A stretch of 64,000 bases of DNA, taken from contig DAOUPZ010000017.1 of the NCBI GenBank assembly GCA_030625885.1, positions 1-64,000 on the forward strand. Direction: 5' to 3'. A program made the translations under genes and the position numbers. Origin of the DNA: Clostridia bacterium. Its GTDB lineage: Bacteria; Bacillota; DAOUPZ01. The number at the start of each line of letters is the position of its first letter. The stretch's first letter is position 1. Positions 218 to 59,545 of this stretch are shown here, one piece after another. Below the pieces are notes generated by a model. That model did not search any database. It was not told the origin of the DNA and saw nothing but the letters and a program-made list of their open reading frames with translations.

Positions 218-230
218 TGCAATAAACAAA

Positions 231-292
231 AACAGGGACAGTTCCGCATTTTGCGTAAGACGCAAAAATGGGGACTGTCCCTGCTTTTGCGT
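231..292. repeat. REP-A palindrome
   Basis: Nested inverted repeat. Outer arms are CAGGGACAGT and ACTGTCCCTG; inner arms are GCATTTTGCG and CGCAAAAATG. It sits between the convergent SLH gene and the minus-strand gene, where the hairpin could end transcription in both directions. It belongs to the same family as the elements flanking the RAYT gene at 17511. Confidence 0.75.
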
Positions 293-7284: not shown

Positions 7285-7335
7285 AATCTTATGAAGCAAT
7301 TATATTCAAGGATACTGTTCGGGAGGTCTGAGACA

Positions 7336-10300
7336 TTGAGAAAAAATCCGCTTTATATCATTGGATTGTCATTATTAATTGGGTTAATGTTTTTTCAGGT
7401 TGCCTATGGGGAAAATGAAGAACCGTTTGAAATATTGGTTAAGTATGCTCCATCATCTTTTAAAGCAGCCGATGCTCATAAAAAAGAGGGGATTGAAAAG
7501 CTGGGGGTTAGAAAGATTGTGGTAGATACCCTTGCAGAGAAGGAACGGATGATTGCGGCCTTAAAGGAAGACGAATCGGTTGAATATATTGAAGAAAACA
7601 TTAAATATTCAGCTTGTCAAATCCCTAATGATGAACTTTATGATCATGATTGGGGATTATCTAACCTAAATGCCGCAGCAGGGTGGGATTTAACCACCGG
7701 TAATTCAGAGGTCATTATTGCGGTTTTGGATACAGGGCTGTTAACGGACTATGCTGACCTGACTGCTAATAGGATAACCGGAAAAACATTTATTACAGGA
7801 ACCAGTACGCCTTATGATGATAATGATGATCATCATGGGACCAATGTGTCTGCTATTATTGCGGCGCAAGGTAATAATGGATTGGATAAAGCGGGCGTTA
7901 CATGGCATTCTAAAGTGATGCCGCTCAAAGTTTTGGACAGTAATGGGGATGGCTATACGGATAAGATTGCCGAAGCAATTATTTACGCTGCGGATCAGGA
8001 TGTGGACGTCATTAATATGAGTTTAGGCGGGGATCAATCATCAAACGTATTGGAAGATGCGGTTGAATATGCTTATAATAAAGGGGTCATCATGGTTGCA
8101 GCCTCCGGAAATCATAATGAGGGCATACCGCCCGTATCTTATCCTGCTGCCTATGATCATGTGTTGGCCATAGGGGCTATTGATCAAAATGAGACCATTG
8201 CGTATTTTTCGAATACGGGATATAACATGGGGTTTGTCGCGCCCGGGGTTGATATTACTTCTTATAATGGACAGAAGACCATTAACGGAACATCCTTTGC
8301 TGCGCCTTATGTATCGGGAACGGTGGCGTTGATGCTGTCCTTAAATCCTCAATTGACATTTGAAGAGATACAATCTATTTTAATCAGCACGGCTAAGGAT
8401 TTGGGATTACCGGGGTTTGATGAAAAATATGGTTACGGGTTAATTAATATTTATAATGTGTTAAAAATGATTGCTTCAGAGCCGGTTATTACACATGAGC
8501 CAATAACCATGGCAGCAGCAGGGAAGCCACTACAAATTGAGGCACAGGTGACGGATGAGAATGAGGTTGAAGCTGTTCTGTTATATTATAAGCCATCTAA
8601 CGGGAATGAATATTTCATGAAAGAAATGGTTCCGATCGAGGGAGATATTTATACGGCTGTCATAGAAGGAACCATGCTGCAGCAGCCGGAATTAGACTAT
8701 TATATTGAAGCGTCTAATGGTATACAAATAACCCATGAGGGAACGGCAGACAACCCGTTTAGAGTAACCGTGATGAGCGCACCGGTAATAGAATGCATCA
8801 ATAGCCAAGAAGGACCGGCAGCCGGAGGATCAGAAGTGATGATCAGCGGATTCAATTTCCAGCAAGGCGCGCAGGTTAAATTTGGTGATGTATTAGCAAC
8901 AGATATAACCGCCAATTCGGATACGAGCATCACAGTCATCACGCCGCCGCATTATCCATCATGGGTAGATGTTACCGTTATAAATCCTGATGGGCTTCAA
9001 GATCGGCTCACGCAGGCGTTTATGTTTAAAAGCGAAGGGGTAACGGTAAGCATACCCGATCGGACGGTATATGAGGGGCAGCTTGTTCGGATACCACTCA
9101 ATATTTCGGATGTTTCGGGATTACGATCGGTTGATCTTCAGCTGTCCTATGATGAAAAGATTCTACAATTGATACAAGTGACAAAAGGCAGTCTGACAGC
9201 TGACTTTGAACTGGGATATAACAGGGATCAAGCGGGGCAGTTGATATTGTCCATGGCATCGCCGACAGCGGTTTACGGAGCAGGTGTATTAAATAACCTC
9301 TATTTTAATGTTTTAAATACAGAAGCAGCAACTTCAGCACTTCATATGGATGATATTTCTTTAAATTCACCGGGGAGTATTCCGGTGAGTACAACAAATG
9401 GGACGATTTATATTACGCATGCCTTTGAAATATCTGGGAACGCCGGTTATTATAAAGGCGACAAAGTGCTTTCAAATGTGACTTTGGAATTGGCAGGGGA
9501 TAAGATGAGTACGACGGTTACCGATGCAACCGGAGCCTATCGAATGAAAGGCATCACAGAGGGTGAGTATACGCTGACGGCAAGCAAGGAAGATGAAGTC
9601 GATGGCATATCGGCCTATGATGCGTCTTTAATATTACAATCTTCTGCAGGTTTACTGGATTTTTCAATCGGGGAACTCATAGCAGGGGATGTTGATCATG
9701 ATGAAACGATTTCAGCTATGGATGCTTCCTATGTATTGGAAAAAGCAGTGGGGTTAAGAGAACTGCCGTTTCCGGGATTGGATAAAATGTGGACATTTCT
9801 TCCTGAGCAAAAAACGTATACTGATCTCAATAGCAATAAAGCCGCGGAAGATTTCACAGGGATTTTGATCGGAGATGTTTCTGGAAATTGGGGAGAGCTG
9901 GAAGCAGCTGTGCAAAGTATTTCAGAACAAGTTGAATTTACCCTGGGTACGGTCAGGACACAGCCCGGCGGACAGGTAGTTGTTCCTCTGCTGTTTGATG
10001 CCGCTCAAGAAAATCTGTATGGCATTGATATCAGTATAAGTTATGATCAAAATGTGGCCATCCCGGTATCTGTTATAAAATCCGATTTGGCGGATGAGCT
10101 TAGTCTAGGGATTAATTTAAATACCCAAGGTGTCATCAAAATGGCGCTTGCAGGGGCACAACCGCTGACGGGTCAAGGAAAACTGATGGATATTGTCTTT
10201 GATACCGTACAAAGTGCCGGATTAAAAACAGATATAAAAGTGGATCGGGTCGAGGTTAATGAGACGAATGCATCTGCAATCCATAACGGTCAGGTCATTA

Positions 10301-10473
10301 TTTCCATTGCAGGTGATGCGGATTTAAATAATACAGTAGATGTTTTAGATTTAGCATTAACGGCTAACCAATATGGCTTAGGTGATCAAGCGGTAGATCT
10401 TAATCATGACGGTATCATTGACCTTTATGATCTGGTTATTATCAGTAAGCATTTAGGCAACAGTTATTTATAG
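7336..10473 (+). CDS. Secreted subtilisin-like protease with cohesin-like and dockerin modules
   Basis: About 1045 residues. After a signal peptide (LYIIGLSLLIGLMFFQVAYG) come an I9-like propeptide, then an S8 serine-protease domain with the triad Asp132 (VLDTG), His167 (HHGTN) and Ser320 (NGTSFAAP). Next come an IPT/TIG-type Ig domain (8790-9030), a cohesin-like domain (9040-9415), a carboxypeptidase-regulatory-like domain (9420-9600), an irregular dockerin pair (9680-9890), a second cohesin-like domain (9930-10310) and a terminal dockerin (10312-10470) with DLNHDGIIDLYDLV. The protease should cut extracellular protein; the dockerin should plug it into a cohesin. The TTG at 7336 has GGGAGGT 9 bases upstream and gives a clean signal peptide; an in-frame ATG at 7291 has no ribosome site. 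Holding both cohesin-like and dockerin modules could make it a branch point. Whether those cohesin-like folds bind dockerins is unknown. Confidence 0.88.
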   Translation: MRKNPLYIIGLSLLIGLMFFQVAYGENEEPFEILVKYAPSSFKAADAHKKEGIEKLGVRKIVVDTLAEKERMIAALKEDESVEYIEENIKYSACQIPNDELYDHDWGLSNLNAAAGWDLTTGNSEVIIAVLDTGLLTDYADLTANRITGKTFITGTSTPYDDNDDHHGTNVSAIIAAQGNNGLDKAGVTWHSKVMPLKVLDSNGDGYTDKIAEAIIYAADQDVDVINMSLGGDQSSNVLEDAVEYAYNKGVIMVAASGNHNEGIPPVSYPAAYDHVLAIGAIDQNETIAYFSNTGYNMGFVAPGVDITSYNGQKTINGTSFAAPYVSGTVALMLSLNPQLTFEEIQSILISTAKDLGLPGFDEKYGYGLINIYNVLKMIASEPVITHEPITMAAAGKPLQIEAQVTDENEVEAVLLYYKPSNGNEYFMKEMVPIEGDIYTAVIEGTMLQQPELDYYIEASNGIQITHEGTADNPFRVTVMSAPVIECINSQEGPAAGGSEVMISGFNFQQGAQVKFGDVLATDITANSDTSITVITPPHYPSWVDVTVINPDGLQDRLTQAFMFKSEGVTVSIPDRTVYEGQLVRIPLNISDVSGLRSVDLQLSYDEKILQLIQVTKGSLTADFELGYNRDQAGQLILSMASPTAVYGAGVLNNLYFNVLNTEAATSALHMDDISLNSPGSIPVSTTNGTIYITHAFEISGNAGYYKGDKVLSNVTLELAGDKMSTTVTDATGAYRMKGITEGEYTLTASKEDEVDGISAYDASLILQSSAGLLDFSIGELIAGDVDHDETISAMDASYVLEKAVGLRELPFPGLDKMWTFLPEQKTYTDLNSNKAAEDFTGILIGDVSGNWGELEAAVQSISEQVEFTLGTVRTQPGGQVVVPLLFDAAQENLYGIDISISYDQNVAIPVSVIKSDLADELSLGINLNTQGVIKMALAGAQPLTGQGKLMDIVFDTVQSAGLKTDIKVDRVEVNETNASAIHNGQVIISIAGDADLNNTVDVLDLALTANQYGLGDQAVDLNHDGIIDLYDLVIISKHLGNSYL

Positions 10474-10494
10474 ATACTCAATGTCAAAACTACA

Positions 10495-10610
10495 ATTACT
10501 ATAGAGAACGCGTTAAATATTTTTCATAGAGTTTAATATCAAAAGGCAGTTGGTTAGTTTGAAATAAAAGATTAAGGAAGCTATAATTTAAGTGATCAGC
10601 TTGGAAATCA
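10495..10610 (-). repeat. CCAACTAACCAACT dispersed repeat, reverse copy
   Basis: Read on the minus strand it matches 28484-28612 and 28745-28860 almost base for base over more than 100 bases: TTAAATTATAG, CCTTAATCTTTTATTT, CAACTAACCAACTGCC, TTTTGATATTAAACTCT and GAAAAATATTTAA occur in the same order. Confidence 0.75.
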
Positions 10611-10621
10611 TAAATATAACA

Positions 10622-10680
10622 ATAGGGACTGTCCTCCTATTTTGCGCACGCAAAATCGGGGACAGTCCCTGTTTTTGCGT
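10622..10680. repeat. REP-A palindrome
   Basis: Outer arms TAGGGACTGTCC and GGGGACAGTCCCT; inner arms ATTTTGCG and CGCAAAAT. Lies between the two subtilase genes. Confidence 0.75.
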
Positions 10681-10781
10681 TAAAGCAGGAATAATCTTTA
10701 TTTTGTAGAAATATTTCTTTGATTGCAAAATACGGGGCAACCTTATTTTTGCATCCATTAATCAGTTAAAGGGAGAAGCAA

Positions 10782-12368
10782 ATGTTCAAACAATGGATAC
10801 GATTTGCAGTGATGATGATTAGTATTTCAGTGATGGTGCAGCCCGGTTGGGCCAGTGAAGGCGAAAGTGAACTGCTGGTAAAGTATAAACCGGGGTACCG
10901 CCAGAGTACGTCTAAGGCAAACAACTTTGCTATTCAGGTAGTAGAAAACACGCCCTTAAGTAAAATCGGTGTCAAGAAACTAAAAGGTGCAGATAAGAAA
11001 AACATGGCGCAGCTGCATAAAGACCTGCTGCAAGATCCGGCCGTTCAATACGTTGTGGTCAATCATGTGCGTCATGCGCTGACAGTTATCCCCAACGACC
11101 CGGTGTTTACCGAACAATGGGCCTTAATGCGGATGCGCTTGCCGGAGGCTTGGGAGATAACCCGTGGAAACGCGGAAGTGGTGACAGCGGTTATCGATAC
11201 GGGTGTTGATATGGATCATCCGGATCTGGTCAATCGGCTGACATCAGGCCATGATTATGTTAATGACGACGATGATCCCGATGATGATAATGGGCATGGG
11301 ACGTTGGCGGGCGGCATTATTGCTGCTGCCACCGATAATCAAACACAGGCGGCCGGTGTGACCTGGCAGGGAAAGGTCATGCCGATGAAAGTGTTGGACA
11401 GCAATGGCAACGGGAATGATTCCGATATTGCAGCATCCATTATTGATGCTGCAGATGAGGGCGCCAAAGTTATTAACCTAAGTTTGGGTGCGCCTGAGTC
11501 TTCGCCCGTACTTCAGGATGCGATCAATTATGCCTATGGAAAAGGGGTCGTGATTGTCGCGGCTTCGGGAAACCATGATACATATGATTTGGAAAAGTTC
11601 GTTTTCTATCCCGCCGCTTGCGATCATGTGATTGCGGTAGGTGCGATTGAAAGTAATAATGAAATCGGCTATTATTCAAATTATGGGTTTGGAATGGACG
11701 TGGTTGCACCGGGGAGCAATATCACCGGCTTAAGTCATGATGGGGACATGAAGCAGGGAAGCGGGACATCATTTGCATCACCGCATGTTGCAGGATTGGC
11801 AGCGTTACTATTGGGATATGATACATCACTAACGCCAGATCAAACAGAAGCGTATATCACCAATAGTACCACCGATTTAGGCGATCCCGGCTGGGATGAA
11901 TATTACGGCTATGGCCTGGTGGATGCGTATACCGCGCTGCATACGCTGCAGCTCGATAAGCCGGGGATGCTCAGCGGCCAAATTATACCGGAAAACGGGT
12001 ATGGGATGGAAGCGATTGATCTTCGATTGGATGGTATGGATGTTTTGCAAAACCTTGATGACAGCGGCTATTTTACCATTGAGAATATCCAGGAGGGCGT
12101 ACATCATCTTGAGATATCAAAGCCCGGGTTTGTGACGAAAAAATTGGAAGTCCATGTTGGTTTGGGTCATACGATTGATTTAGGCGAAATAGATCTCAGG
12201 TATGGTGATCTTAACGGTGATGGGATCATCGATCTTTTTGATCTGGTGCTGTTATCTCGCAAACTGGATAGTACCTCTACATTACCGGACGCTGTTTATG
12301 ATCCAGATCATGATGGGAAAATATCGCTTGTCGATTTAACCTGCATCGCCTGGAACTATGGAAAGTAA
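10782..12368 (+). CDS. Secreted subtilisin-like protease with C-terminal dockerin
   Basis: 528 residues. Signal peptide about 1-25 (FAVMMISISVMVQPGWAS), an I9-like propeptide region to about 110, then an S8 domain with Asp139 (VIDTG), His172 (NGHGT) and Ser330 (SGTSFASP). A carboxypeptidase-regulatory-like domain follows (11965-12195), then a dockerin (12204-12366): DLNGDGIIDLFDLV and DPDHDGKISLVDLT. It should be exported, mature by removing its propeptide and attach through the dockerin to a cohesin such as that at 14379. It is a shorter relative of the preceding protease, lacking the cohesin-like modules. Its two dockerin halves are in the opposite order to those of the neighbour. AAAGGGAG precedes the ATG. 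Confidence 0.92.
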   Translation: MFKQWIRFAVMMISISVMVQPGWASEGESELLVKYKPGYRQSTSKANNFAIQVVENTPLSKIGVKKLKGADKKNMAQLHKDLLQDPAVQYVVVNHVRHALTVIPNDPVFTEQWALMRMRLPEAWEITRGNAEVVTAVIDTGVDMDHPDLVNRLTSGHDYVNDDDDPDDDNGHGTLAGGIIAAATDNQTQAAGVTWQGKVMPMKVLDSNGNGNDSDIAASIIDAADEGAKVINLSLGAPESSPVLQDAINYAYGKGVVIVAASGNHDTYDLEKFVFYPAACDHVIAVGAIESNNEIGYYSNYGFGMDVVAPGSNITGLSHDGDMKQGSGTSFASPHVAGLAALLLGYDTSLTPDQTEAYITNSTTDLGDPGWDEYYGYGLVDAYTALHTLQLDKPGMLSGQIIPENGYGMEAIDLRLDGMDVLQNLDDSGYFTIENIQEGVHHLEISKPGFVTKKLEVHVGLGHTIDLGEIDLRYGDLNGDGIIDLFDLVLLSRKLDSTSTLPDAVYDPDHDGKISLVDLTCIAWNYGK

Positions 12369-12370
12369 CC

Positions 12371-12406
12371 AACGCAAAAACGGGGACAGTCCCCATTTTT
12401 GCGTTA
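12371..12406. repeat. REP-A palindrome, compact form
   Basis: Near-perfect 31-base palindrome: CGCAAAAA, GGGGACAGTCCCC, TTTTTGCG. Starts two bases after the protease stop codon, so it can act as an RNA stem protecting or ending the transcript. Confidence 0.8.
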
Positions 12407-12427
12407 TGATAAGGAGAGGTGCAATTC

Positions 12428-14227
12428 ATGAAAGAAAAGTGTTATAGATTATTTTTATACAGCATTATCATAACAACCGTTCATTTGTTGATGAACACCG
12501 GTTTTTATGGCTATGCGGCGGAGGACTTCAGGTCATCTGCTCAATTATTCAGCATGGAACGGGATGCTAAAGTGGTTGATGCAGGTGATAAAATAGCCAT
12601 CACTGTGAAGGGAACGAATGACATTTCTAAGATTTGTATCGTTCATTATGCGCCTTCATATGCTACGACTAAAAATTTTAAAGCCATCGAATTGAGTTCC
12701 CATGATGAAGGTTTATGGCAAGGCAGTTATGAAATTTATGCTTATGATGAAGCAGGTGTCTGGACCTTTAAAAATATGGTACTTTATGATTGGGCAGGGA
12801 ACCGGACGATGATCAACAGAAATGAATTATCCCAATGGATCAGGGGTATGGATGAAGAAACGTTGGATTTTATGGTGAGGGACACCATGAAAACGGATCC
12901 GTTAGCGGCCGATTTAAATGAGGATGGGATTGTCAATATTGAAGATCTATCTCAATTATCACTATCGTATGGCTCAAAAAGTACAGATAAAGATTTTGAT
13001 CGTATCAATGATTTAAATTATAACGGGTCAGTGGATTTATATGATTTGGATTTTATGGCTACACAATTTGATCACGATGTTCAAAAGCAAGCGCTGATGG
13101 CTTTTTGTCCCGGGTATATAGCCTACTCAGAGGATTTAGAAGCATCCATCAATCCTCTGGATACGGTTGCGTTTGCCTGGGGGCGGTTAGAAGATGAGCA
13201 TGGCATTGAACTGAATACGACTAAAGGTGAAAATGGCAACTATGATTTCTATTTTCCTTCCCGGGAGGATGATGGGATGAGCCTTCTGCAATATTGTAAG
13301 GATTCAGGGAAGTCAACAGCGTTCAGTGTTTTTGCCGATCGGGCAACGGTTGAAGCCATATTGCCGGATGACGAAAAAAGGCAAGAAGTGATTGAAGTCA
13401 TCATTGATCAAGTTTCAGAAGAGATTGAGATGGATGATGGGGAACCCTTTACATTTGACGGTATTGTTGTTGATTTTGAGGGGATGAAAGATCATAATGC
13501 CAGTGGTGATTATTATTTTTTTAATCATAAAGTTATGAGTGAATACTTTGATTTGTTTTTATTTGAATTAAAAGATAGGCTGCATGCGATGAACAAAAAA
13601 CTCTATGTAACGGTTCCTCCTAGAAAGTGGATGAATGGCTATAACTATGACAACATCATAAAGAATGCAGATCAAGTCATCTTGATGGCCCATGATTATG
13701 CATCAAGGGGAAAAATCAGCAAGCGCGATGTCATTAAATTTTTGGATGATAACATCAAAGACTCCATCAATTCGCTTGCCCCTATTCATCGAGTAGAAGA
13801 GGCGCTTATAGATATTGCCAGCTGTACAGAAAACCAGTGGGAACGAGATAAAATAGCTTTGCAGATTTCTTTTGGGACAGCCCAGTGGCAGTTTAAACTG
13901 TCGTCTCCAAAAGCATGGGAAAGTTTAAGTGATGAAACAGAGAGCGACAATGGCGCCCTGTCAACAACGTATGAAACGATAGCGGCCCGATTAAGAAATG
14001 AGGACGGTAAAGCAGAGGCACTTAAAGCCGGTTATAACAATGAAGTGGAAAGCCCGTATATCACGTACTACAATACAGATTCACAAACGTATAATTTTAT
14101 TCTTTATGAAGACAGCAGAAGTATATCAGCGAAAATCAATAAAGCAAAGGCATATGGTTTAAATGGGATCTCGATATGGTGTTTAGGGAAGATCACGGAC
14201 TTTCCCATCACTCTCTGCGTTCGCTGA
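12428..14227 (+). CDS. Secreted GH18-like protein with internal dockerin
   Basis: 599 residues. Signal peptide about 1-30 (RLFLYSIIITTVHLLMNTGF), a beta-rich domain to about 150, a dockerin at 12905-13075 (DLNEDGIVNIEDLS, DLNYNGSVDLYDLD), then a glycoside-hydrolase-18-like barrel to the end. The barrel has FDGIVVDFEG with the catalytic-position Glu351 and later YVTVPPRKW and VILMAHDY, as in SleL/YaaH-type spore and wall hydrolases that cut N-acetylglucosamine linkages. The canonical DxxDxDxE is reduced to DGIVVDFE, so activity needs proof. Start: ATG 12428, after AGGAGAGGTG; an in-frame GTG at 12419 overlaps that site. The last codons (LCVR, stop) lie in a dispersed repeat, so the original C-terminus may be replaced. 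Confidence 0.78.
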   Translation: MKEKCYRLFLYSIIITTVHLLMNTGFYGYAAEDFRSSAQLFSMERDAKVVDAGDKIAITVKGTNDISKICIVHYAPSYATTKNFKAIELSSHDEGLWQGSYEIYAYDEAGVWTFKNMVLYDWAGNRTMINRNELSQWIRGMDEETLDFMVRDTMKTDPLAADLNEDGIVNIEDLSQLSLSYGSKSTDKDFDRINDLNYNGSVDLYDLDFMATQFDHDVQKQALMAFCPGYIAYSEDLEASINPLDTVAFAWGRLEDEHGIELNTTKGENGNYDFYFPSREDDGMSLLQYCKDSGKSTAFSVFADRATVEAILPDDEKRQEVIEVIIDQVSEEIEMDDGEPFTFDGIVVDFEGMKDHNASGDYYFFNHKVMSEYFDLFLFELKDRLHAMNKKLYVTVPPRKWMNGYNYDNIIKNADQVILMAHDYASRGKISKRDVIKFLDDNIKDSINSLAPIHRVEEALIDIASCTENQWERDKIALQISFGTAQWQFKLSSPKAWESLSDETESDNGALSTTYETIAARLRNEDGKAEALKAGYNNEVESPYITYYNTDSQTYNFILYEDSRSISAKINKAKAYGLNGISIWCLGKITDFPITLCVR

Positions 14228-15760: not shown

Positions 15761-15950
15761 TTATTACAGGTACAAAGTGTCAATGTTCTAAATGTTTTAA
15801 TCATTTAATTGTGAATTATGAATTGTAAATTGTGAATTGTCATTCTGGTGTGTCCCTTTTTTGCGTCTACTAGAAGGAATTAAACGAGTTAAGTGGGAAT
15901 ATATAAAATATTGCGTAGAAATTTATGGAATAATGCGAGGAGGAATGAAA

Positions 15951-17411
15951 ATGAAGAAAAATTTAATCGTATTGAGTGTTTGTATGCTGTTGGCATTTAT
16001 GGGTCTGATTCAGGTATCCCAGGATATCGCACTGGCAGAAGAAAGCATACATGTTGATTCAAAGGATGGGGGAAGCAAAATCATTAAATTACCGTCAGAC
16101 CGTGATCAAACGGACAGGAAAATGATGGATATTACAGGTGATACGGTAACCATTTTTGCGGAAGATCCTTTGCAAGATTGGGCTGTGGCAGAAGTGTTTT
16201 ATATGGATCCGGATTGGGATAACAATTATGGATGTTGCTGGGATATTGAGCCGCTGATTGAAGAGGTTGATGGCGGATGGAACATTACATTGAATGACTT
16301 GGACTGGTCAATGGCTGATACATATTATGTGAGTATTTCTACAGGTCATCGTATCTATCAAACCGAAGTTACCGCAGCTCAAGTCGGGCAGCAGATCAAT
16401 CTTGCACCGGATGATACCTATTTTAACGTTGAAATCGATGCGTCGTTTATGGAAAACATTGAAGAATTGGTATTACACTATATCGATGATGCAGGCCATG
16501 AAATGTCAGCAGGCGATTTAGAAGCGGGTGCTTTGATTCCTGCGGGGACGTATCATGTCCAGTTAAATGGTTGGGATGCGAGTGGTAACGGCTATTGCTT
16601 GTTTAAACGAAATGTTCAATTGTCCGCTGCGCAAAAGGTTATTTCTTTTTCACAAGATAATATGGAAAAAGTGACACTGAATCTAACCCTGCCGGCAGAT
16701 ACAAGTTTGAATCTGAATGCTATCATACCTTATCATGTGAATGATTTTTATACGACATATTACTTGGAAGATGACGAACATATCAATATCATTCAATCCC
16801 TTTACTTAACAAAAGATACTTATGAACATATTGGCTTTGAGTTCAATACGCCGGATAATCAATGGCTTTATGAAATACAATCCCCTCAACTTATCGTGGA
16901 TGGTAGTGCTTCAACCATCAGTATAGATGTTGGTGCGGATTTACAAGCAAGCATTGATTTAGAATCGCTTACCTTTCAGCCGGGTCAAACCATCGATACC
17001 TGGGGTGATATAGGGGTGTTTGATGGTGATGGGAATCAGTATTTTATTTATGATGCCGATTGGAATGAATTTGAAGGTATGATGGAACTGAATAACAGCA
17101 CTTTAACAGAACCCATTATATTACCGATCATGTATTCTACCATTACTTTCCCCGCTGATGTTACCGGCACTTTTGATATGACATATCGAGTAGAGGACGG
17201 GCCGCTCTCTATAGCGCCTGCAACGGTACAGATCAGTATTGGCGACAGTGGATCAGGTGCAACCAGTGATATCAATGGTGACGGCTATGTGAATATCGAC
17301 GATCTGTCCTATATGGCTGGCTTTTATGGAACAAATGATGTAGATTGTGATCTTAATAGTGATGGCATCGTTGATCTTTATGATTTGGTCATGATGAGTA
17401 AAAATCTATAA
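15951..17411 (+). CDS. Secreted dockerin protein of unknown function
   Basis: 486 residues. Signal peptide 1-30 (LIVLSVCMLLAFMGLIQVSQ, cut near ALAEE). The middle is beta-rich and acidic, with repeated aromatic segments such as YYVSIST, TYHVQLNGWD and FYTTYYLEDD; I do not recognise the fold. The last 48 residues are a dockerin: DINGDGYVNIDDLS and DLNSDGIVDLYDLV. It should be exported and held by a cohesin, perhaps as a binding or structural component because no catalytic motif is visible. The ATG at 15951 has GAGGAGG 7 bases upstream; the frame runs back to 15837, but that part encodes no signal peptide and overlaps a repeat. Confidence 0.75.
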   Translation: MKKNLIVLSVCMLLAFMGLIQVSQDIALAEESIHVDSKDGGSKIIKLPSDRDQTDRKMMDITGDTVTIFAEDPLQDWAVAEVFYMDPDWDNNYGCCWDIEPLIEEVDGGWNITLNDLDWSMADTYYVSISTGHRIYQTEVTAAQVGQQINLAPDDTYFNVEIDASFMENIEELVLHYIDDAGHEMSAGDLEAGALIPAGTYHVQLNGWDASGNGYCLFKRNVQLSAAQKVISFSQDNMEKVTLNLTLPADTSLNLNAIIPYHVNDFYTTYYLEDDEHINIIQSLYLTKDTYEHIGFEFNTPDNQWLYEIQSPQLIVDGSASTISIDVGADLQASIDLESLTFQPGQTIDTWGDIGVFDGDGNQYFIYDADWNEFEGMMELNNSTLTEPIILPIMYSTITFPADVTGTFDMTYRVEDGPLSIAPATVQISIGDSGSGATSDINGDGYVNIDDLSYMAGFYGTNDVDCDLNSDGIVDLYDLVMMSKNL

Positions 17412-17476
17412 ACGCAACAACAGGGACAGTCCCGCATTTTGCGTACGCAAAATTGGGGACAGTCCCCTTTTTTGCG
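17411..17476. repeat. REP-A palindrome upstream of the RAYT gene
   Basis: Two stems: CAGGGACAGTCCCG and GGGGACAGTCCCC, separated by GCATTTTGCG / CGCAAAAT, with a TTTTTT tail. It starts on the last base of the preceding dockerin gene and ends 34 bases before the RAYT start. Confidence 0.85.
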
Positions 17477-17483
17477 CATAATA

Positions 17484-17492
17484 TGGTAAAAT
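17484..17492 (+). promoter_or_regulatory. Extended -10 candidate for RAYT
   Basis: TG-G-TAAAAT, 8 bases after the REP stem and just before AAGGAGGTG. The same block (AATATGGTAAAAT, then AAGGAGGTG) is repeated before the next gene at 18336, so it may travel with the REP instead of being a true promoter. Confidence 0.35.
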
Positions 17493-17510
17493 ATAGAAGG
17501 AGGTGTAATA

Positions 17511-18296
17511 ATGATGCCCAGACAGGCCCGTATCAAAGCTGAAAATGCTATTTATCATATCATGCAGCGTGGTAATGAAAAGAAACCCATTTTTAAAGGG
17601 GGGGCAGATAAATACTGTTATTTAGAGAAGCTTCAGATAGCAAAACAGAAATTTAAGTTTAAAATACATGCCTATTGTCTCATGAACAATCATGTCCATC
17701 TTTTAGTATCTGCCAACGGTGCTGATATTTCCGAATTTATGAAAAGCATCAATGTTAGTTATGTTGCTTATTTTAATCATCAATATCAGCGTTGTGGGCA
17801 CTTGTTTCAAGGGCGTTTTATTAGTGAAATCGTAGATACGGATCGTTATTTTTTGCAGGCCAGTAAATATATTCATGCCAATCCCGTTAAAGCTTTAATG
17901 GTTGAGAAACCTCAAGATTATCATTGGAGTAGTTATGGGGTCTATATTGGTACGAGAAAAGATGAGCTGCAGTTGGTTGATATAGATTTAGTATTAGATA
18001 TCATTTCCAAAGATCGCAAAGTCGCTATTGAGAAATATAAAGAATGGGTAACCGATGAAAGACGCATTGGTTCCGGCTATCGACGTTTCAGGTATTTTGA
18101 AGAAGGCAAGGAGGATGAGAGAATTCAACAGGCTATCATTAGAAATATTCTAACGACTTATCCTGGAGAAAGAGATCAGGTTTTGCTGGAACTCAGGAAA
18201 AAAACAGATTTAACGTTAAAGGAAATGGGGCAGCTGGTTGGCGGTCTTTCCGCATCAGCAGTCCAAAGAGCATTGAAGAAACAAGAGAACAAGTAA
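17511..18296 (+). CDS. REP-associated tyrosine transposase (RAYT, Y1/TnpA-REP family)
   Basis: 261 residues, usual for the family. The HUH motif is His61-Val-His63 in MNNHVHLL, and the catalytic tyrosine is Tyr120 in SKYIHANP, followed by WSSYGVYIG. The C-terminal 60 residues form a helical DNA-binding-like region (LKEMGQLVGGLSASAVQRAL). RAYTs are single-copy IS200-like enzymes that cut and join single-stranded REP hairpins and probably spread them. REP-A palindromes lie directly on both sides, and at least nine more are in this window, which strongly suggests they are its substrates. Start: ATG 17511 with AAGGAGGTG 6 bases upstream (17514 is also possible). The catalytic residues are intact. 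Confidence 0.93.
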   Translation: MMPRQARIKAENAIYHIMQRGNEKKPIFKGGADKYCYLEKLQIAKQKFKFKIHAYCLMNNHVHLLVSANGADISEFMKSINVSYVAYFNHQYQRCGHLFQGRFISEIVDTDRYFLQASKYIHANPVKALMVEKPQDYHWSSYGVYIGTRKDELQLVDIDLVLDIISKDRKVAIEKYKEWVTDERRIGSGYRRFRYFEEGKEDERIQQAIIRNILTTYPGERDQVLLELRKKTDLTLKEMGQLVGGLSASAVQRALKKQENK

Positions 18297-18329
18297 CGCA
18301 ACAAAAAGGGATTGTCCCGCATTTTGCGT
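18297..18329. repeat. REP-A palindrome downstream of the RAYT gene
   Basis: CGCAACAAAAAGGGATTGTC then CCGCATTTTGCG, starting in the base after the RAYT stop codon. A half-size copy of the upstream element, completing a REP-RAYT-REP arrangement. Confidence 0.75.
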
Positions 18330-18335
18330 GGAATA

Positions 18336-18344
18336 TGGTAAAAT
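18336..18344 (+). promoter_or_regulatory. Extended -10 candidate for the transglycosylase gene
   Basis: TG-G-TAAAAT followed by AAAAAGGAGGTG. The block matches that upstream of the RAYT gene, giving a very short leader if used. Confidence 0.35.
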
Positions 18345-18363
18345 GTAAAAAGGAGGTGTGGTT

Positions 18364-19860
18364 ATGAACGGGAAAAGAACGATAATGATCAGTATCTTAA
18401 TTTTTGTGGTTCTATTTAACCTTAAGCTATCGGTTGCAGCAGCGCAGGAATTAGACTTAAATCAAATGACGCATACCATTGTTACAGAAGATCGCGGTGA
18501 TGTTCTTAATATGACCATTGATCAAGCGCAGGGGATGGTAACGGTCAATGACCAGATAATCTCAATGGAAGGATATCTTTATAAAGTATTTGTCAATGAT
18601 TTGACAGGCGACGGTCATTATGAAATAATTGTATCGTCTAAAAAAGAAGGTACCGCTTCTCTGTTAAGTTATAGCGTGTATGACGTATTAAATGGGGAGC
18701 TCAACAGCCTATATAAGAAAGAAAACATTTATAAAGGCCGTATTGAAATAAATGAAGGCAGCATCGTAGAATGGATACCGGTTTATGCTGAGGGAGATGC
18801 CAATGCATGGCCGAGTGCGTATATGCAAAATATGTATCGATTTGATGGGACAACCTTTGTACCGGATCGCGCCGTAGAAACGGTTCCGCAAAGACAATCG
18901 TTAACCATAGGACCCGGTGTTAATCCTTCAAGAGCAGAAATAGAAAGCATCATGGAAGAAGTTGCGGCTCGTGTGGGTATCCCGGCTTGTATTCTCAAAA
19001 GTATTGGTTATACGGAGAGTACGTTTCGCCAGTACAAAGACGGCTACCCCCTTTCGCCAGTCGGTGAAAGCAGCTGGGGGATCATGCAGGTCAATACGAA
19101 GTGGCATCCCGAATATTCGGAAGAACGATTAAAATATGATATCCGGTACAATATTCAAGCCGGGGCGGAAATATTGAAGAACAAATGGCACAGAACAGAC
19201 ATTCCTAAAGTTGGAAATCATGATCTGCGGGTGTTGGAAGACTGGTATTTTGCGATTTGGGCCTACAACGGATGGTCCGATGTGAATAATCCCAACTGCA
19301 ACTTAAAACCGGAAGTGTATCAGGATAAAGTCATCGGCTTTGCTCAGGCGCAATTTGGACAGGCTGTCACTAGAATAGATTCAGATTTATTACCCCAGAC
19401 AGGTAAGCCGGCTTCCGATGAGATCTATACAACGCCCCAGCCGCAGCATTTGATCGATTTAGGGATTCACAAAGGCGATATTTTAATCGATATGACGGAT
19501 GAGTCCGGTGTCAATTTGCGAGATCAAGCGCAAGATGGGTTAACGGTTGGCAGTTTATCCCCGCGTGAGGGGATGCTGGTCGTGGGAGAAGAACCTGTGG
19601 TAGATGGTCATTATTTAAGGTATCACGTTAAAACGCTTGACGATGCATTGGAAGGCTGGGTTGTGCTGAAATATGTGCAAAAAATGCGCAACAGTGACGT
19701 GAATAAAGATGGGATCACAGATGTATTTGATCTTGTAAAGCTATCTCGAAAGATGGGCTGTTTTATAACGGGTGAAAATGGGGATGATCAACTTGATATG
19801 AATGATGATGGGGAAATCGATACCTATGACTTTATGTTAGCAGCAAAAAAATATCACTAG
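18364..19860 (+). CDS. Secreted lytic-transglycosylase-like protein with SH3-like and dockerin modules
   Basis: 498 residues. Signal peptide 1-28 (TIMISILIFVVLFNLKLSVA), an N-terminal domain of unknown type (30-180), then an SLT lysozyme-like domain (about 185-330) with Glu218 in GYTESTFRQ, ESSWGIMQV and WAYNGW. An SH3b-like module follows (about 370-440, GVNLRDQAQDGLTVGSL) and then a dockerin (19693-19857): DVNKDGITDVFDLV and DMNDDGEIDTYDFM. Lytic transglycosylases cleave the MurNAc-GlcNAc bond of peptidoglycan; here the enzyme would be held at the surface by its dockerin. The Tyr and Gln positions expected around GIMQV are present. ATG 18364 is preferred over the in-frame GTG at 18358, which lies inside AGGAGGTG. 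Confidence 0.87.
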   Translation: MNGKRTIMISILIFVVLFNLKLSVAAAQELDLNQMTHTIVTEDRGDVLNMTIDQAQGMVTVNDQIISMEGYLYKVFVNDLTGDGHYEIIVSSKKEGTASLLSYSVYDVLNGELNSLYKKENIYKGRIEINEGSIVEWIPVYAEGDANAWPSAYMQNMYRFDGTTFVPDRAVETVPQRQSLTIGPGVNPSRAEIESIMEEVAARVGIPACILKSIGYTESTFRQYKDGYPLSPVGESSWGIMQVNTKWHPEYSEERLKYDIRYNIQAGAEILKNKWHRTDIPKVGNHDLRVLEDWYFAIWAYNGWSDVNNPNCNLKPEVYQDKVIGFAQAQFGQAVTRIDSDLLPQTGKPASDEIYTTPQPQHLIDLGIHKGDILIDMTDESGVNLRDQAQDGLTVGSLSPREGMLVVGEEPVVDGHYLRYHVKTLDDALEGWVVLKYVQKMRNSDVNKDGITDVFDLVKLSRKMGCFITGENGDDQLDMNDDGEIDTYDFMLAAKKYH

Positions 19861-21479: not shown

Positions 21480-21556
21480 CAATTCACAATTGACAATTCA
21501 TAATTCACAATTAAAAGATGAAAGAACAGGCGTTAGCAGGCAGCAGGTAGGAAAAG

Positions 21557-21624
21557 ATAGAGGGACGATCGCTCTCTGCGTTCGCTGAACGAGGAACGAT
21601 CGCTCCCTTTGGTTGCTCAACGAT
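21557..21624. repeat. CGTTCGCTGAACGAG dispersed repeat
   Basis: A tandem pair of about 31-base units, each beginning GAACGATCGCTC or GGACGATCGCTC: the first continues TCTGCGTTCGCTGAACGA, the second CCTTTGGTTGCTCAACGA. Confidence 0.75.
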
Positions 21625-21665
21625 AAAGGATAAAAGATTGGCTGAAGGCTGAACGTTAAACGAAA

Positions 21666-21735
21666 GATTGGGGACTGTCCCTGCTGGTTGCATGCTTTAT
21701 TGAAATCAGAGGGACTGTCCCCAATGTTGCGTATT
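21666..21735. repeat. REP-A palindrome, long-loop form
   Basis: Arms of about 22 bases, ATTGGGGACTGTCCCT plus CTGGTT, facing the complementary GGGACTGTCCCCAAT, with loop GCATGCTTTATTG. The same form recurs at 25725, 27963 and 58982. Confidence 0.8.
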
Positions 21736-21982
21736 AGAAGCTAAAGGAACAGGAGTTAGGAGTTAGGAGTTAGGAGTTAGCAGGTAGGAGTTAGGAAAAG
21801 ATTTTTCATTTGACAGTTGACAGTTAAAGGGTGAAAGATAAAAGATTGGCTGAAGGCGGAAAGCTGAAAGCTAAAAGCAAGTGTAAAGTAGAACCAATTG
21901 CGAAAACGATCTTTTAATCATTTAATTATGAATTGTGAATTAATAATTGTGAATTGCTTACAGAAAGGTTCAGGGTGATGTC

Positions 21983-22792
21983 ATGATTGATATCCATAGT
22001 CATATTTTGCCCTTTTTAGATGATGGGGCGGACGATTGGGAAACCGCATTGGCCATGGCGCGAATTGCGAGTGAGGAAGGCATTCATACCATGGTAGCGA
22101 CGTCTCATTATATTGAAGGTGCCGTGGAGCCGACAAAAGAAGAGATTCAAGAGAAAATTGCTGAATTTAGTAATCTTTTATTACAAGCAGGGGTTGAACT
22201 GACGGTTTTGCCCGGTCATGAAATATACTTGACACCGTTCGTCCCACAGCTTTTGGAAAAGGGACGGCTGTTTACGTTAAATGATCGTTACCCGTATGCG
22301 CTCATTGAATTTCCCATGCAGGAAATACCGATCTATTGTGAATCTGTGATTTTTGAGCTGCAATGTATGGGTATTAGCCCCGTTTTGGCCCATCCCGAAC
22401 GGAATCGGAAGATTGTCGAGAATCCCAATTTGCTATATCCCCTGTTAGAAAAGGGGCTTTTGACGCAGATGAACAGCAGCAGCCTGACCGGGAAATTTGG
22501 TTCAGCTGTTCAGAAAACGGCGCAAATATTGCTGCAATGTCGGATGATCCACGGTATGGCCACAGACGCTCATTCGGATGGCGGCCGTGCACCTCGAATC
22601 CAGGAAGCATCACGAATCGTGCGGGAAATGGTACCGGAAGACTATGCCCAGAAAATTCTTGAGGAATGGCCTCGGCGGATCATTGCCGGAGAGCCCATCA
22701 ACCCGCCTTTACCTCAAGAATATATACCGCCGCGGAAGAAAATGAGTTTTCTGGAAAAGATGAAAAGGCAATTTACAATTCATAATTCATAA
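21983..22792 (+). CDS. CpsB/YwqE-type tyrosine-protein phosphatase (PHP domain)
   Basis: 269 residues. The metal-binding PHP motifs are present: MIDIHSHILP near the start, the HPERN block at about 137-141 and DAHSD near 196. These enzymes are manganese-dependent and dephosphorylate the CpsD-type kinase encoded just upstream, completing the switch. It is separated from cpsD by 500 bases of repeats, unlike the tight clustering usual for this operon. The final residues FTIHNS come from an AATTCATAATTCAC repeat, so the C-terminus has probably been changed or extended. ATG 21983 with AGGGTGATG upstream. Confidence 0.9.
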   Translation: MIDIHSHILPFLDDGADDWETALAMARIASEEGIHTMVATSHYIEGAVEPTKEEIQEKIAEFSNLLLQAGVELTVLPGHEIYLTPFVPQLLEKGRLFTLNDRYPYALIEFPMQEIPIYCESVIFELQCMGISPVLAHPERNRKIVENPNLLYPLLEKGLLTQMNSSSLTGKFGSAVQKTAQILLQCRMIHGMATDAHSDGGRAPRIQEASRIVREMVPEDYAQKILEEWPRRIIAGEPINPPLPQEYIPPRKKMSFLEKMKRQFTIHNS

Positions 22793-22952
22793 TTCACAAT
22801 TGAAAGGATAAAAGAACAGGCGTTAGGCGTTAGCAGGTAGGGAAAGATTTTTCAGTTGACAGTTGACAGTTGAGAGTTGACAGTTAATGGATAAAAGAAC
22901 AGGAGTTAGCAGGTAGCAGGTAGGAAAAGAAAAAAGGATTAGCTGAAGGTTA

Positions 22953-23007
22953 ATGCAAGAATGGGGACATTCCGTGAGGTACGAGCGGTGTGTCCCCATT
23001 CTTGCAT
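22953..23007. repeat. REP-B palindrome
   Basis: ATGCAAGAATGGGGACATTC, loop TGAGGTACGAG, then GTGTCCCCATTCTTGCAT. The outer arms ATGCAAGAATGGGGACA pair perfectly with TGTCCCCATTCTTGCAT. Confidence 0.8.
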
Positions 23008-23170
23008 ATGCGAGAATCTAAAAACTAGGGGAAAGTAAATCTAATGCAAAAACGATCTTTTAATCCTTTAATTGTGAATTATGAATTGTGAATTATGAAT
23101 TGAAAGCAATGATTTCCAATTTTTGTCTATGATGCATGTTATATTTTTAGTATAATAAATTTATAGTATA

Positions 23171-23202
23171 CGCAAAATTGGGGACTGTCCCCGATTTTGC
23201 GT
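23171..23202. repeat. REP-A palindrome, compact form
   Basis: ACGCAAAATTGGGGAC and GTCCCCGATTTTGCGT flank a central T. It lies 20 bases before the CPBP gene start and within a longer open frame that is not the true coding start. Confidence 0.75.
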
Positions 23203-24176: not shown

Positions 24177-25615
24177 AGCCGAACAATCAATTGAAGATAT
24201 ATATTGGGATTTTAATGGTTCTTGCTTTTTATGCCAGCTGGTCGGTTATAAAATCATATCCTGTTGCCAACACCTTGGGGACATGGTTTGTGATCGGTAT
24301 TTTTGTGTTATTGAGAATCATATTGGGAACGAAAAGCACAACAATTATTGATAACGGGGTAGAGAAACAATACCGATATACATTTGTAATTAGCGTTCTT
24401 GCCGTTTTGAGTGTAGGCCCCGGGGCTGCCCTGGTCAGTATGCTGGTTGCTTATCCTGTCTATTCTGTAATCAATATTGTTACAAAGAAAATAGGCAGGG
24501 ATATAGGAGAGATTTTTTTCAATTATGCCATTCAATTACTATCCCTTTCGGGAATGGGAACATTGTTCGTCTTGTTGGGCGGTTACGCTGGGGGTGTTCG
24601 GTTTCCATATAATACCTTTGCAATATTAACGGCATCAGCAGCTAATTTCTTTATCAGTAATTTACTAACTATTGTAAAGATGAAGCTGAAAAGAAAAGAA
24701 TCGGAAAGTATCACCCAGATTTTTAAAAAAGAGTATCTGTGGCTGATTCGATATGATTTGTGGCAGGCCATTTACGGCGTATTGGTTTACAATGTGTTTC
24801 AAATGACGTTATTACAGCTGGCGGGACGGAAAGCTGGTGCATTGGGTGGAACAGGGTTATATCAGGTGACCAATACGGATGTTATTAGTTTGCTGGGTAT
24901 CATTACTATGGGCTTTATATTCTATTATCCATTGAGTCAAAGACTTCACTCTTTTCAAACGCTCATAAAATACAACAAACAAACTCAGGAAATTAAAAAC
25001 CTCTATGAATTGCTGCAAAAGGAATATGATCGAGAAGTAGAAAATATTGAAAATGTCATTGTTGTACTGGCAAAAGCCATTGAAGCCAAGGATAAATATA
25101 CGGAAGGTCATGCGCAAAGGGTCAGTCAGTATGCCGTGGCCATCGGTAAAAAAATGAATCTTTCCGATCAAAGTATTAAGACGTTGGAAATCGGTGGGCT
25201 TATTCATGATATTGGAAAAATCGGAATCCCGGAAGCGGTTTTGAATAAACCGGGAAAATTAACCGATGAAGAATATGAAATTATCAAGAAACACCCTGCG
25301 GTAGGCGAAGAAATTTGTAAACCGCTGCAATCTCTGAAAAATATCTTACCCGTTATTCGCTATCACCATGAGAAACTGGATGGTGTGGGTTACCCGGACG
25401 GTTTAAATGCCCCTCGAATACCTGTAGAGGCCAGAATTGTTGTCGTCGCCGATATTTTCGATGCATTATACAGTGACCGACCATATCGTGGTAAGATGCC
25501 TTTGGAGAAAGCATTGAATATTTTAAGAGAGGAAAAAGAACGCAATCATCTAGATGGGCATATTGTGGATATATTTATTGATATCGTCACGACTGGCGAG
25601 CTAGCGGTTGACTGA
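24173..25615 (+). CDS. Membrane HD-GYP domain protein (probable cyclic-di-GMP phosphodiesterase)
   Basis: 480 residues. The N-terminal 270 residues form about seven membrane helices, a likely sensor. A short coiled linker (about 265-300) leads to an HD-GYP domain with His345-Asp346 (LIHDIGKIGIP), HPAVGEE, YHHEKLDGVGYPDG (Gly-Tyr-Pro at 406-408) and DIFDALYSDRPYR. The domain normally hydrolyses cyclic-di-GMP, a signal that often controls exopolysaccharide. TTG at 24173 has GGAGGAGGG upstream and overlaps the preceding stop (TTGA), so translation is coupled. No matching GGDEF cyclase is in the window. Confidence 0.9.
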   Translation: MKPNNQLKIYIGILMVLAFYASWSVIKSYPVANTLGTWFVIGIFVLLRIILGTKSTTIIDNGVEKQYRYTFVISVLAVLSVGPGAALVSMLVAYPVYSVINIVTKKIGRDIGEIFFNYAIQLLSLSGMGTLFVLLGGYAGGVRFPYNTFAILTASAANFFISNLLTIVKMKLKRKESESITQIFKKEYLWLIRYDLWQAIYGVLVYNVFQMTLLQLAGRKAGALGGTGLYQVTNTDVISLLGIITMGFIFYYPLSQRLHSFQTLIKYNKQTQEIKNLYELLQKEYDREVENIENVIVVLAKAIEAKDKYTEGHAQRVSQYAVAIGKKMNLSDQSIKTLEIGGLIHDIGKIGIPEAVLNKPGKLTDEEYEIIKKHPAVGEEICKPLQSLKNILPVIRYHHEKLDGVGYPDGLNAPRIPVEARIVVVADIFDALYSDRPYRGKMPLEKALNILREEKERNHLDGHIVDIFIDIVTTGELAVD

Positions 25616-25623
25616 ATTAAAGA

Positions 25624-25690
25624 TAGAGGGACGAGCGCTCTCTGCGTTCGCTGAAGGAGGAACGATCGCTCCCTTTGGTCGCTGAACGAT
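25624..25690. repeat. CGTTCGCTGAACGAG dispersed repeat
   Basis: ACGAGCGCTCTCTGCGTTCG, CTGAAGGAGGAACGATCGCT, CCCTTTGGTCGCTGAACGA. First element of composite copy 2. Confidence 0.75.
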
Positions 25691-25724
25691 AAAGCATAAA
25701 AGATTGGCTGAAGGCTAAACGAAA

Positions 25725-25794
25725 GATTGGGGACTGTCCCTGCTGGTTGCATGCTTTATTGAAACCAGAGGGACTGTCCCCAATGTTGCGTATT
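25725..25794. repeat. REP-A palindrome, long-loop form
   Basis: Identical to the element at 27963 and one base different in the loop from that at 21666, which suggests recent copying. Confidence 0.8.
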
Positions 25795-25974
25795 AGAAGC
25801 TGTTAGCAAGTGTAAAGAAAACCTAATGCGAAAACGATCTTTTAATCCTTTAACTGTCAACTGTCAACTGGCAAAGGCGTGTCCCCATTGTTGCGTTATT
25901 ATAGGCACAAAGTGTCAATATTCTAAATGTTTTTAGTCTTTTAATTATGAATTAATAATTGTGAATTATGAATT

Positions 25975-26034
25975 GGTGACTATAAGAGCAGCAGCCTACT
26001 ACGGCTGCTGCTCTTATAGTCACCCGTTTGGGTG
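25975..26034. promoter_or_regulatory. Perfect 22-bp hairpin with overlapping second stem
   Basis: Arms GGTGACTATAAGAGCAGCAG-CC and the exact complement, with loop TACTAC (25975-26024). The end of the 3' arm, CACCC, can instead pair with GGGTG (26021-26034), so the two stems exclude each other. There is no clear T-run, so it is not a plain terminator. A diverged relative lies at 28123-28181, on the other side of the dockerin gene. Confidence 0.55.
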
Positions 26035-26213
26035 ACAGACAAATACAAGAAAATTGCTTAAACTAAAGTTTAAGGAACGATTCCTTAGACTTACTTTTTT
26101 CACTGTTAGGTCATATCAACATGGTATCTTACAATATAATTAAAGGATAGAGAACATGTTGGCTTGCAGGATGTTGTATATGTATTTTAATGACAAAGGA
26201 GGCGAATGTTCTA

Positions 26214-27719: not shown

Positions 27720-27728
27720 GGATGGAAG

Positions 27729-27919
27729 ATAGAGGAACGATCGCTCTCTGCGTTCGCTGAACGAGGAACGAGCGCTCCCTTCGGTTGCTGAAGGATAAAA
27801 GAACAGGCGTTAGGAGTTAGCAGGTAGGAGTTAGGAAAAGAATAAAGATAAAGATAGAGGAACGAGCGCTTACTGTGTTCGCTGAACGAGGAACGAGCGC
27901 TTCCTTCGGTCGCTGAAGG
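27729..27919. repeat. Two CGTTCGCTGAACGAG repeats
   Basis: Copies at 27729-27794 and 27854-27919, separated by GGCGTTAGGAGTTAGCAGG-type repeats. The second copy has drifted (TTACTGTGTTCGCTGAACGA). Confidence 0.75.
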
Positions 27920-27962
27920 ATAAACGATAAAAGATTGGCTAAAAGCTGAAAGCTAAACGAAA

Positions 27963-28032
27963 GATTGGGGACTGTCCCTGCTGGTTGCATGCTTTATTGA
28001 AACCAGAGGGACTGTCCCCAATGTTGCGTATT
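27963..28032. repeat. REP-A palindrome, long-loop form
   Basis: Same 70 bases as 25725-25794, followed by the same TATTAGAAGCTGTTAGCAAG in both places. Confidence 0.8.
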
Positions 28033-28122
28033 AGAAGCTGTTAGCAAGTGAAAAGAAAACCTAATGCAAAAACAGTCTTTTAAATCTTTTAATTATGAAT
28101 TGTGAATTATAAATTGTGAATT

Positions 28123-28181
28123 GGGGTGAAAGTAGAAGCAGCAGCCAACAGGCGCTTCTTCTACTTTCACCCCTTTGGGTG
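28123..28181. promoter_or_regulatory. Hairpin related to 25975-26034
   Basis: Arms GGGGTGAAAGTAGAAG and CTTCTACTTTCACCCC around CAGCAGCCAACAGGCGCTT. As at 25975, the last CACCCC can pair with a following GGGTG. The core AGCAGCAGCC and the trailing TTGGGTGACA are shared between the two. Confidence 0.5.
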
Positions 28182-28483
28182 ACATACACCCCGTCAAAAA
28201 AGCATTAAAATAAAAGGGGCTTTATATATATAGATTCCTTAATCTTTTACTTCCAACTTTCCAACTAACCAACTTATTAACAACACAATAATATTTTAAC
28301 ATAAAATTTTGTTAATAATATTAACCATGTTTAGCAGGATTTTAAAGATTTAATAAGAATTACTAATAAATCATAAATATTCCTTGTACCTCATAAAACG
28401 ACATTTTTTTCAATATTCAAGTGCTATAATGACTTTTGGGCAGGGAAATAAAATCAAACAAAATGTATGAATATGCTATAGAT

Positions 28484-30740: not shown

Positions 30741-30893
30741 ACGATAGGGGAACGATGGGTGAACGATGATTGAACGATGGTTAAACGATAGTTGAACGAT
30801 GGTTGAACGATGGTTAAACAATGGTTGAACGATAGTTAAACGATGGTTAAGCGATAGTTAAACGATGGTTAAACGATGGTTAAACGATGGTTG
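30738..30893. repeat. 11-bp tandem repeat array, about 14 units
   Basis: Units of TTAAACGATGG or TTGAACGATAG with A/G changes at fixed places, beginning inside the capD-like stop codon. There are no spacers, so this is not a CRISPR array. Confidence 0.9.
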
Positions 30894-32041: not shown

Positions 32042-32112
32042 ACGATGGTTGAGCGATGGTTGAACGATAGTTAAACAATGGTTAAACAATGGTTAAACAA
32101 TAGTTAAACTAT
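32028..32112. repeat. 11-bp tandem repeat array between cassette genes
   Basis: About seven units of TTAAACAATGG/TTGAACGATAG. It starts within the last codons of the rhuM-like gene and continues to 32112. Confidence 0.88.
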
Positions 32113-58781: not shown

Positions 58782-59071
58782 GAGTGGACAGTTGACAGTT
58801 AAGGGATTAAAAGATAGAGGAACGAGCGCTTCGTTTGGTCGCTGAACGAGGAACGAATAACGATTAAAAGATATTTTAGTGATCAGTTATAGATTTCCAA
58901 GCTGATAACTTAAATTATAGATTCCTTAGTCTTTTATTTCCAACTAACCAACTAACCAACTATCCTCTGAGGACTGAGCAACATTGGGGACTGTACCTGC
59001 TGGTTGCATGTTTTTTATGCAACCAGAGGGCCTGTCCCCGAGGTTGCGGCTTAAAGGAAAGAGGATTAGAT
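58782..59071. other. Intergenic repeat mosaic
   Basis: GTTGACAGTTGAGAGTGGAC repeats (58768-58800), a partial CGTTCGCTGAACGAG-type repeat (58814-58857), a CCAACTAACCAACT repeat (58880-58970) and a long REP-A (58982-59048). No gene. Confidence 0.65.
58982..59048. repeat. REP-A palindrome, long-loop form
   Basis: CATTGGGGACTGTACC, then inner perfect arms CTGGTTGCAT and ATGCAACCAG around GTTTTTT, then AGGGCCTGTCCCCGAGG. Ends 23 bases before the VanZ-like gene. Confidence 0.8.
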
Positions 59072-59539: not shown

Positions 59540-59545
59540 AAAACA

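Follow-up and report, generated by a model that had tools for sequence, protein, structure and literature searches.

A tyrosine transposase gene and its flanking hairpins

The window, a stretch of 64,000 nt analysed here as a whole, lies on contig C10 of its genome (G000) and contains a gene for an HUH tyrosine transposase that is flanked by copies of REP-A, a hairpin of about 33 nt with the pattern ACGCAAAA-NNN-GGGACWGTCCC-NNN-TTTTGCGT (Table 1). Two REP-A copies form a head-to-tail tandem pair upstream of the gene, and a third lies downstream. The original prediction had described one palindrome on either side, starting at the last base of the upstream gene and directly after the transposase stop codon, respectively. 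The flanking arrangement is confirmed, with three copies instead of two, and the ends shift by a base: the first copy follows the upstream stop directly, and it is the third that begins within a stop codon.

Table 1. Positions of the transposase gene, the REP-A elements and the leader copies in the window.
Feature	Position	Strand	Remarks
HUH tyrosine transposase gene, probably of TIRYT / TnpA-Y1 subclass 2.1 type	17511..18296	+	261 aa; PF01797, NF047646, model against 4er8
REP-A copy 1	17412..17444	+	directly 3' of upstream stop codon (TAA 17409-17411)
REP-A copy 2	17445..17477	+	left TIR in the phylum-wide orientation; abuts copy 1
Leader	17478..17510	+	extended -10-like TGGTAAAAT and Shine-Dalgarno sequence
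REP-A copy 3	18296..18329	-	right TIR; overlaps last base of transposase stop
Second leader copy	18330..18359	+	ahead of downstream SLT-dockerin gene
REP-A tandem pair	225..292	.	members at 225 and 260
REP-A tandem pair	10615..10680	.	member 10615 degenerate, 10648 full or near-full
Single REP-A	12372..12404	.	3 nt past stop of 10782-12368
Single REP-A	23170..23202	.	
Composite, REPIN-like	21660..21732	.	two REP-A-like halves about 40 nt apart, within 190-nt repeat
Composite, REPIN-like	25719..25791	.	
Composite, REPIN-like	27957..28029	.	
Composite, REPIN-like	58976..59049	.	cores degenerate

The protein carries the catalytic motifs HVH at residues 61-63, FQ at 99-100, and Tyr120 within YIHANP, the first and last of which had been correctly predicted as HUH and catalytic tyrosine. 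Neither the reading frame nor any catalytic residue is disrupted, and the gene is found in a single copy in the 3.1-Mb genome. On contig C4, PF01797 matches a second gene, but this one is degenerate and lacks the HUH motif. The Pfam family Y1_Tnp (PF01797) matches the protein with an E-value of 4.6e-16, the NCBIfam model REP_Tyr_transpos (NF047646) scores 79 bits, 1 bit short of its cutoff of 80, and the IS200 transposase model stays far below its own (20.6 bits against 55). Matches to small heat-shock proteins obtained with phmmer were judged to be due to chance. An AlphaFold model built on a five-sequence alignment (mean pLDDT 78.5) has as its top PDB match the complex of E. coli RayT with a REP hairpin (4er8, E 2.3e-7, TM 0.69 by target length), followed by the IS608 and ISDra2 transposases. 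The C-terminal third is helical in the predicted model, and families of HTH domains match it only below cutoff, with Bac_DnaA_C (E 0.13) as a match that is weak by sequence.

The hairpins around the gene can be read as inverted and as direct repeats. As inverted repeats they align with a score of 39, 34 nt upstream of the gene. The left TIR, whose GGGAC starts 55 nt ahead of the transposase ATG, carries GGGGACAG at 17455, which fits the motif GGGGWSAS, and the right TIR carries GCGGGACA, where the first base of this motif is missing. As direct repeats, the first copy (REP1, 17412) and the third (REP3, 18296) differ at four of 35 aligned columns. This repetition extends into the leader, so that hairpin and leader (AATATGGTAAAAT...GGAGGTGT) are duplicated 3' of the transposase gene, before the SLT-dockerin gene; the leader sequence ATATGGTAAAAT is confined to two places in the genome, the leader at 17478-17510 and 18333. 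The same layout is found in the related locus L053, whose gene stands between two identical direct copies of a 42-nt sequence that begins at the core, and in L029 a long direct repeat has the TIR as its end. The repeated hairpin and leader would fit the integration or loss of a gene-bearing circle with one hairpin, and could alternatively stem from an older tandem duplication. No Rfam family was matched.

Dispersed copies and their surroundings

The core GGGACWGTCCC is present in 12 exact copies in the window, where first-order Markov simulations predict 0.0, and in 21 copies genome-wide, 16 of them on C10. A genome-wide search requiring both arms, with at most three mismatches, found full-arm REP-A at 14 places, and none with the reversed pattern used as control. 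Nine of these places are on C10 (seven inside the window), two on C9, one on C26 and two on C38. Absence of REP-A outside the window had been named as grounds against the original prediction; since five elements lie on other contigs and two more on C10 beyond the window, these grounds do not apply. The predicted presence of at least nine other copies in the window also holds if composite half-sites are counted (the full or near-full elements at 225, 260, 10648, 12372 and 23170, the degenerate one at 10615 and the four composites). These composites, together with two more on C10 beyond the window, have paired halves as in REPINs.

Of 17 elements or half-elements checked, 16 contain no coding bases; the exception, at 23170, overlaps the putative TTG start codon of an ORF that may begin elsewhere. 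Copies sit 0-3 nt past three stop codons, and some resemble terminators in that a T run follows GGGGACAGTCCCC.

The distribution of REP-A is far from even, with nine of the 14 full-arm elements on the 2.9% of the genome represented by C10. This clustering does not demonstrate local hopping from the gene, which is unproven as its source, because unrelated repeats of the window are likewise concentrated on C10 and at the beginning of C9, and become sparser in other places. The simplest reading is that the C10 region is tolerant of intergenic insertions and rich in genes for secreted proteins and polysaccharides. That C10 is so strongly enriched in REP-A and other repeats could also be expected if the contig were foreign, a binning error or a recent island with repeats of its own. 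This is very unlikely, since several repeat families, including full REP-A and the GGGGACATTCC family, occur on many other contigs and most of C10 is close in composition to the sampled genome.

The secreted-protein setting noted in the original prediction is borne out by a run of genes (7291-12368, 12419-14227, 15837-19860 and 26190-27719) encoding subtilases with cohesin and dockerin, GH18, SLT-dockerin and further dockerin proteins, which adjoins polysaccharide biosynthesis genes. The presence of cohesin and dockerins in one cluster suggests a small cell-surface complex.

Besides REP-A, the window holds several other repeats. Another hairpin family starting with GGGGAC, GGGGACATTCCGTGAGGTACGAGCGG...TGTCCCC, consists of two inverted halves with a short spacer. 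It is found in the window at 15717, 22963, 60108 and 63224, and at 19 places on ten contigs of the genome; among the 199 other phylum genomes, a single one has it, in one copy. No cognate transposase was recognised for this family. An 11-bp unit (AACGATGGTTA and variants) forms arrays at or just past gene ends (30751-30892, 32029-32131, 32491-32567). A dense intergenic mosaic of short-unit repeats covers 21480-23116, 25611-28123, 28228-28869, 54322-55587 and 58765-63392, with the units GACAGTT, AATTCATAATTGAC, CCAACTAA, GGAGTTAG and the 31-bp CGCTGAACGAGGAACGA; these are concentrated on C10 and found elsewhere in the genome too. These repeats resemble the STRR repeats of cyanobacteria. Beyond the window, a segment of C10 (L060, G000:C10:84001-91128) has a GC content of 0.47 and a tetranucleotide composition that departs from that of the remaining genome (correlation 0.65); it is not rRNA, because no Rfam family matches it.

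Hairpins beside related genes in the phylum

A protein search of a general collection of genome contigs gave only six relatives, all distant, and a phylum-wide search was used instead. The comparison set comprised the 200 nearest genomes, including that of the window; all are from the same phylum, and none of the others is from the same genus, family, order or class. A relative of the transposase (E ≤ 1e-10) is encoded in 60 of the 199 other genomes. Since the class associated with TIRs is this common in the phylum, its occurrence in a Gram-positive host is no surprise. The host is taken to be Gram-positive from its nearest named relatives, which are of Clostridium.

The motif GGGAC[AG] was sought within 300 nt of the gene in 30 loci, which include the window and are not fully independent. 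Upstream it is found on the gene strand in 26 loci and in reverse in two; downstream it is found in reverse in 23 and forward in seven. Motifs pointing inward at both ends are present in 21 of the 30, against 0.48 expected from shuffles. These shuffles replaced a cross-locus control for inverted repeats, which was inflated because all loci share the motif.

The commonest core across the phylum is GGGGACGGTTCT, set within stems that vary between genomes: 20 loci have 18 distinct left arms. Self-complementarity of the arms is nevertheless high, with a mean of 6.3 versus 3.9 for permuted partners (z 8.3; reached in none of 500 permutations). Each arm pairs with its own partner though the arms differ, and therefore pairing is kept while the sequence drifts. 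The number of GGGGACGGTTCT copies is associated with the gene, with 1,062 copies in the 60 genomes with a relative versus 121 in the 139 without (Mann-Whitney p 8e-19; p 4e-5 when each family is represented by one genome). Eleven genomes with a relative lack GGGGACGGTTCT, and seven genomes without one have at least five copies. Full-arm REP-A itself was not found in any of the 199 other genomes, and the tie between REP-A and the gene therefore rests on position in one genome.

These comparisons bear on whether REP-A elements serve chiefly as intrinsic terminators or as hairpins at mRNA ends, having multiplied through ordinary duplication and lying beside a transposase by chance, as their T runs and their closeness to stop codons could indicate. 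Such an origin is improbable in view of the relatives from many families, which have GGGAC hairpins in fixed orientation around the homologous gene, and of a motif number that tracks the presence of this gene. A role as terminator could coexist with a role in a TIRtron.

Across the phylum, the two strands of the hairpin differ in predicted folding. For 59 TIR candidates, which are non-independent samples, the mean folding energy with RNA parameters is -12.8 versus -10.2 kcal/mol between strands (Wilcoxon p 1e-6), and the difference with DNA parameters is small (-5.7 versus -5.2 kcal/mol, p 2e-4). One strand folds better because G-T is among the closing pairs of the wobble core GGGACGGTTCT. In the window itself the hairpin has no strand bias, because the core of REP-A is symmetric.

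The window's own genome also contains eight copies of GGGGACGGTTCT (on C15, C23, C27, C31, C33 and C38), some of them in hairpins (AAGCAAGC...GCTTGCTT), and its sole intact relative gene is the one flanked by REP-A. Could these copies be orphan TIRs belonging to a TIRYT that has been lost or is foreign? The spacing of GGGGACGGTTCT hinted at a decayed second TIRtron at C33:12659-13431; no Y1 gene is found there, and the intervening ORF encodes a different protein.

Orphan hairpins of this kind, without a recognised cognate gene, would suit a unit that is domesticated or dead, its hairpins being relics and its gene being kept for another role on single-strand DNA. The single gene copy, the few elements and the divergence of REP-A copies point the same way. 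This explanation is possible but somewhat unlikely, given that the frame is intact with all catalytic residues present, and that REP1 and REP3, on either side of the gene, have diverged little from one another.

Class membership and proposed mode of action

RAYT-like genes flanked by inverted repeats that are not of the GTAG type and share GGGGWSAS were described by Di Nocera et al. 2013 (PMC3733652), who named them TIRYT and the units TIRtrons. Their TIRs can be self-complementary and dimeric, and form moderately abundant repeat families (PMC3733652). The locus in the window has the same composition, a RAYT-like HUH/Tyr gene between non-GTAG inverted repeats with this motif. Contrary to the described cases, its core is a near-perfect palindrome, and the downstream hairpin also directly repeats the first upstream copy, with the leader repeated past the gene.

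In the classification of Quentin et al. 2018 (PMC6006769), 20 of 26 TIRYT examples belong to TnpA-Y1 subclass 2.1, which corresponds to group 1 of Bertels (Table 1 therein) and consists of long proteins with a C-terminal HTH. The marks of this subclass are NHVH, W[EQ] or FQ, a Y[IV]HLNP-like motif, a median length of 238 aa, and a C-terminal domain of the type Bac_DnaA_C, HTH_23 or HTH_28 (PMC6006769). The protein agrees with this subclass in NHVH, FQ, Y--NP (YIHANP, with A for L) and a length of 261 aa, close to the 240-260 aa seen in the subclass; its C-terminal extension, helical in the predicted model, may correspond to the HTH domain. The tree accompanying this assignment took in phylum relatives and E. 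coli RayT. The same study reported no REP-like structures near subclass 2.1 (PMC6006769), whereas here the hairpins are consistent once a variable stem is allowed.

The best-known relative is the REPtron of E. coli RayT/TnpAREP (4ER8; PMC8266576), with which the unit shares the fold of the catalytic core, the HUH and Y--NP motifs, and hairpins that flank the gene and are dispersed. Identity between both proteins is 24% over 103 aligned positions, and the C-terminus is longer here than in RayT. The residues of RayT that contact GTAG are W94, Q95, E100, H101 and R104 (PMC6006769); they correspond here to F, Q, S, E and D, so that only Q95 is kept. The original prediction of a REPtron, for which a GT-rich or GTAG-like foot was to be sought, thus stands as regards the unit of REP-like palindrome, tyrosine transposase and palindrome with dispersed copies, and fails as regards the GTAG type, since no GTAG or GTGG was found beside any of the seven REP-A elements tested and four of the five contact residues differ. 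A canonical GTAG-type REPtron as in Gammaproteobacteria, whose protein reads the GT-rich foot, is therefore largely refuted and highly improbable, in spite of the shared fold family, the closest solved structure being RayT, and the flanking and dispersed palindromes. The conserved sequence is instead GGGGAC inside the hairpin, and, as in subclass 2.1, the protein is extended by a long stretch at its C-terminus. The copy number of REP-A, at 14 places, is likewise below that of the high-copy dispersed REP of GTAG REPtrons (often >100). The IS200/IS605 TnpA proteins (IS608, ISDra2) share the HUH/Tyr single-strand chemistry and the fold; contrary to them, the protein has Y--NP instead of Y---Q, and its gene is single-copy and adjoins no TnpB gene.

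The unit is thus probably a TIRtron, consisting of a single-copy gene for a TIRYT-type HUH/Tyr nuclease (TnpA-Y1 subclass 2.1) and its cognate hairpins. The fold family, the catalytic motifs, the flanking hairpins, the conserved inward GGGAC and the varying yet paired stems support this, as does the association of the gene with motif copy number across the phylum. We infer that the unit is mobile. The protein would bind the GGGGAC hairpin in single-stranded DNA such as the lagging-strand template and, judging from its fold family (PMC8266576), nick the DNA beside it via Tyr120 with a 5'-phosphotyrosine link. The freed end would be joined elsewhere, and hairpins, dimers and REPIN-like pairs would slowly spread between genes, chiefly at sites that tolerate insertions. 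Through the direct repeats at 17412 and 18296 with their leader, a gene segment of about 884 nt could leave or arrive as a one-hairpin circle.

TIRtrons are already known as a kind, although sparsely described. New here are a motif better defined than the published one, its orientation, and its co-occurrence with the gene. As a more speculative and rather doubtful extension, TIRYT proteins might represent a third recognition mode among REP-type transposases, in which GGGGAC is read near the tip of a stem free to drift and strand identity is given by the G-T wobble of GGGACGGTTCT; in the window, the wobble core would now be a symmetric palindrome, readable on both strands and working as direct and inverted repeats.

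The subclass concerned, the largest REP-less one among the REP-type transposases, was described as lacking recognisable hairpins, and its TIR partners were known from about two dozen examples. A GGGGAC hairpin with a free stem, a fixed orientation and a copy number that tracks the gene supplies a well-defined substrate for tests. It also makes such elements searchable in Gram-positive genomes, in which repeats of the REP type have received little study.
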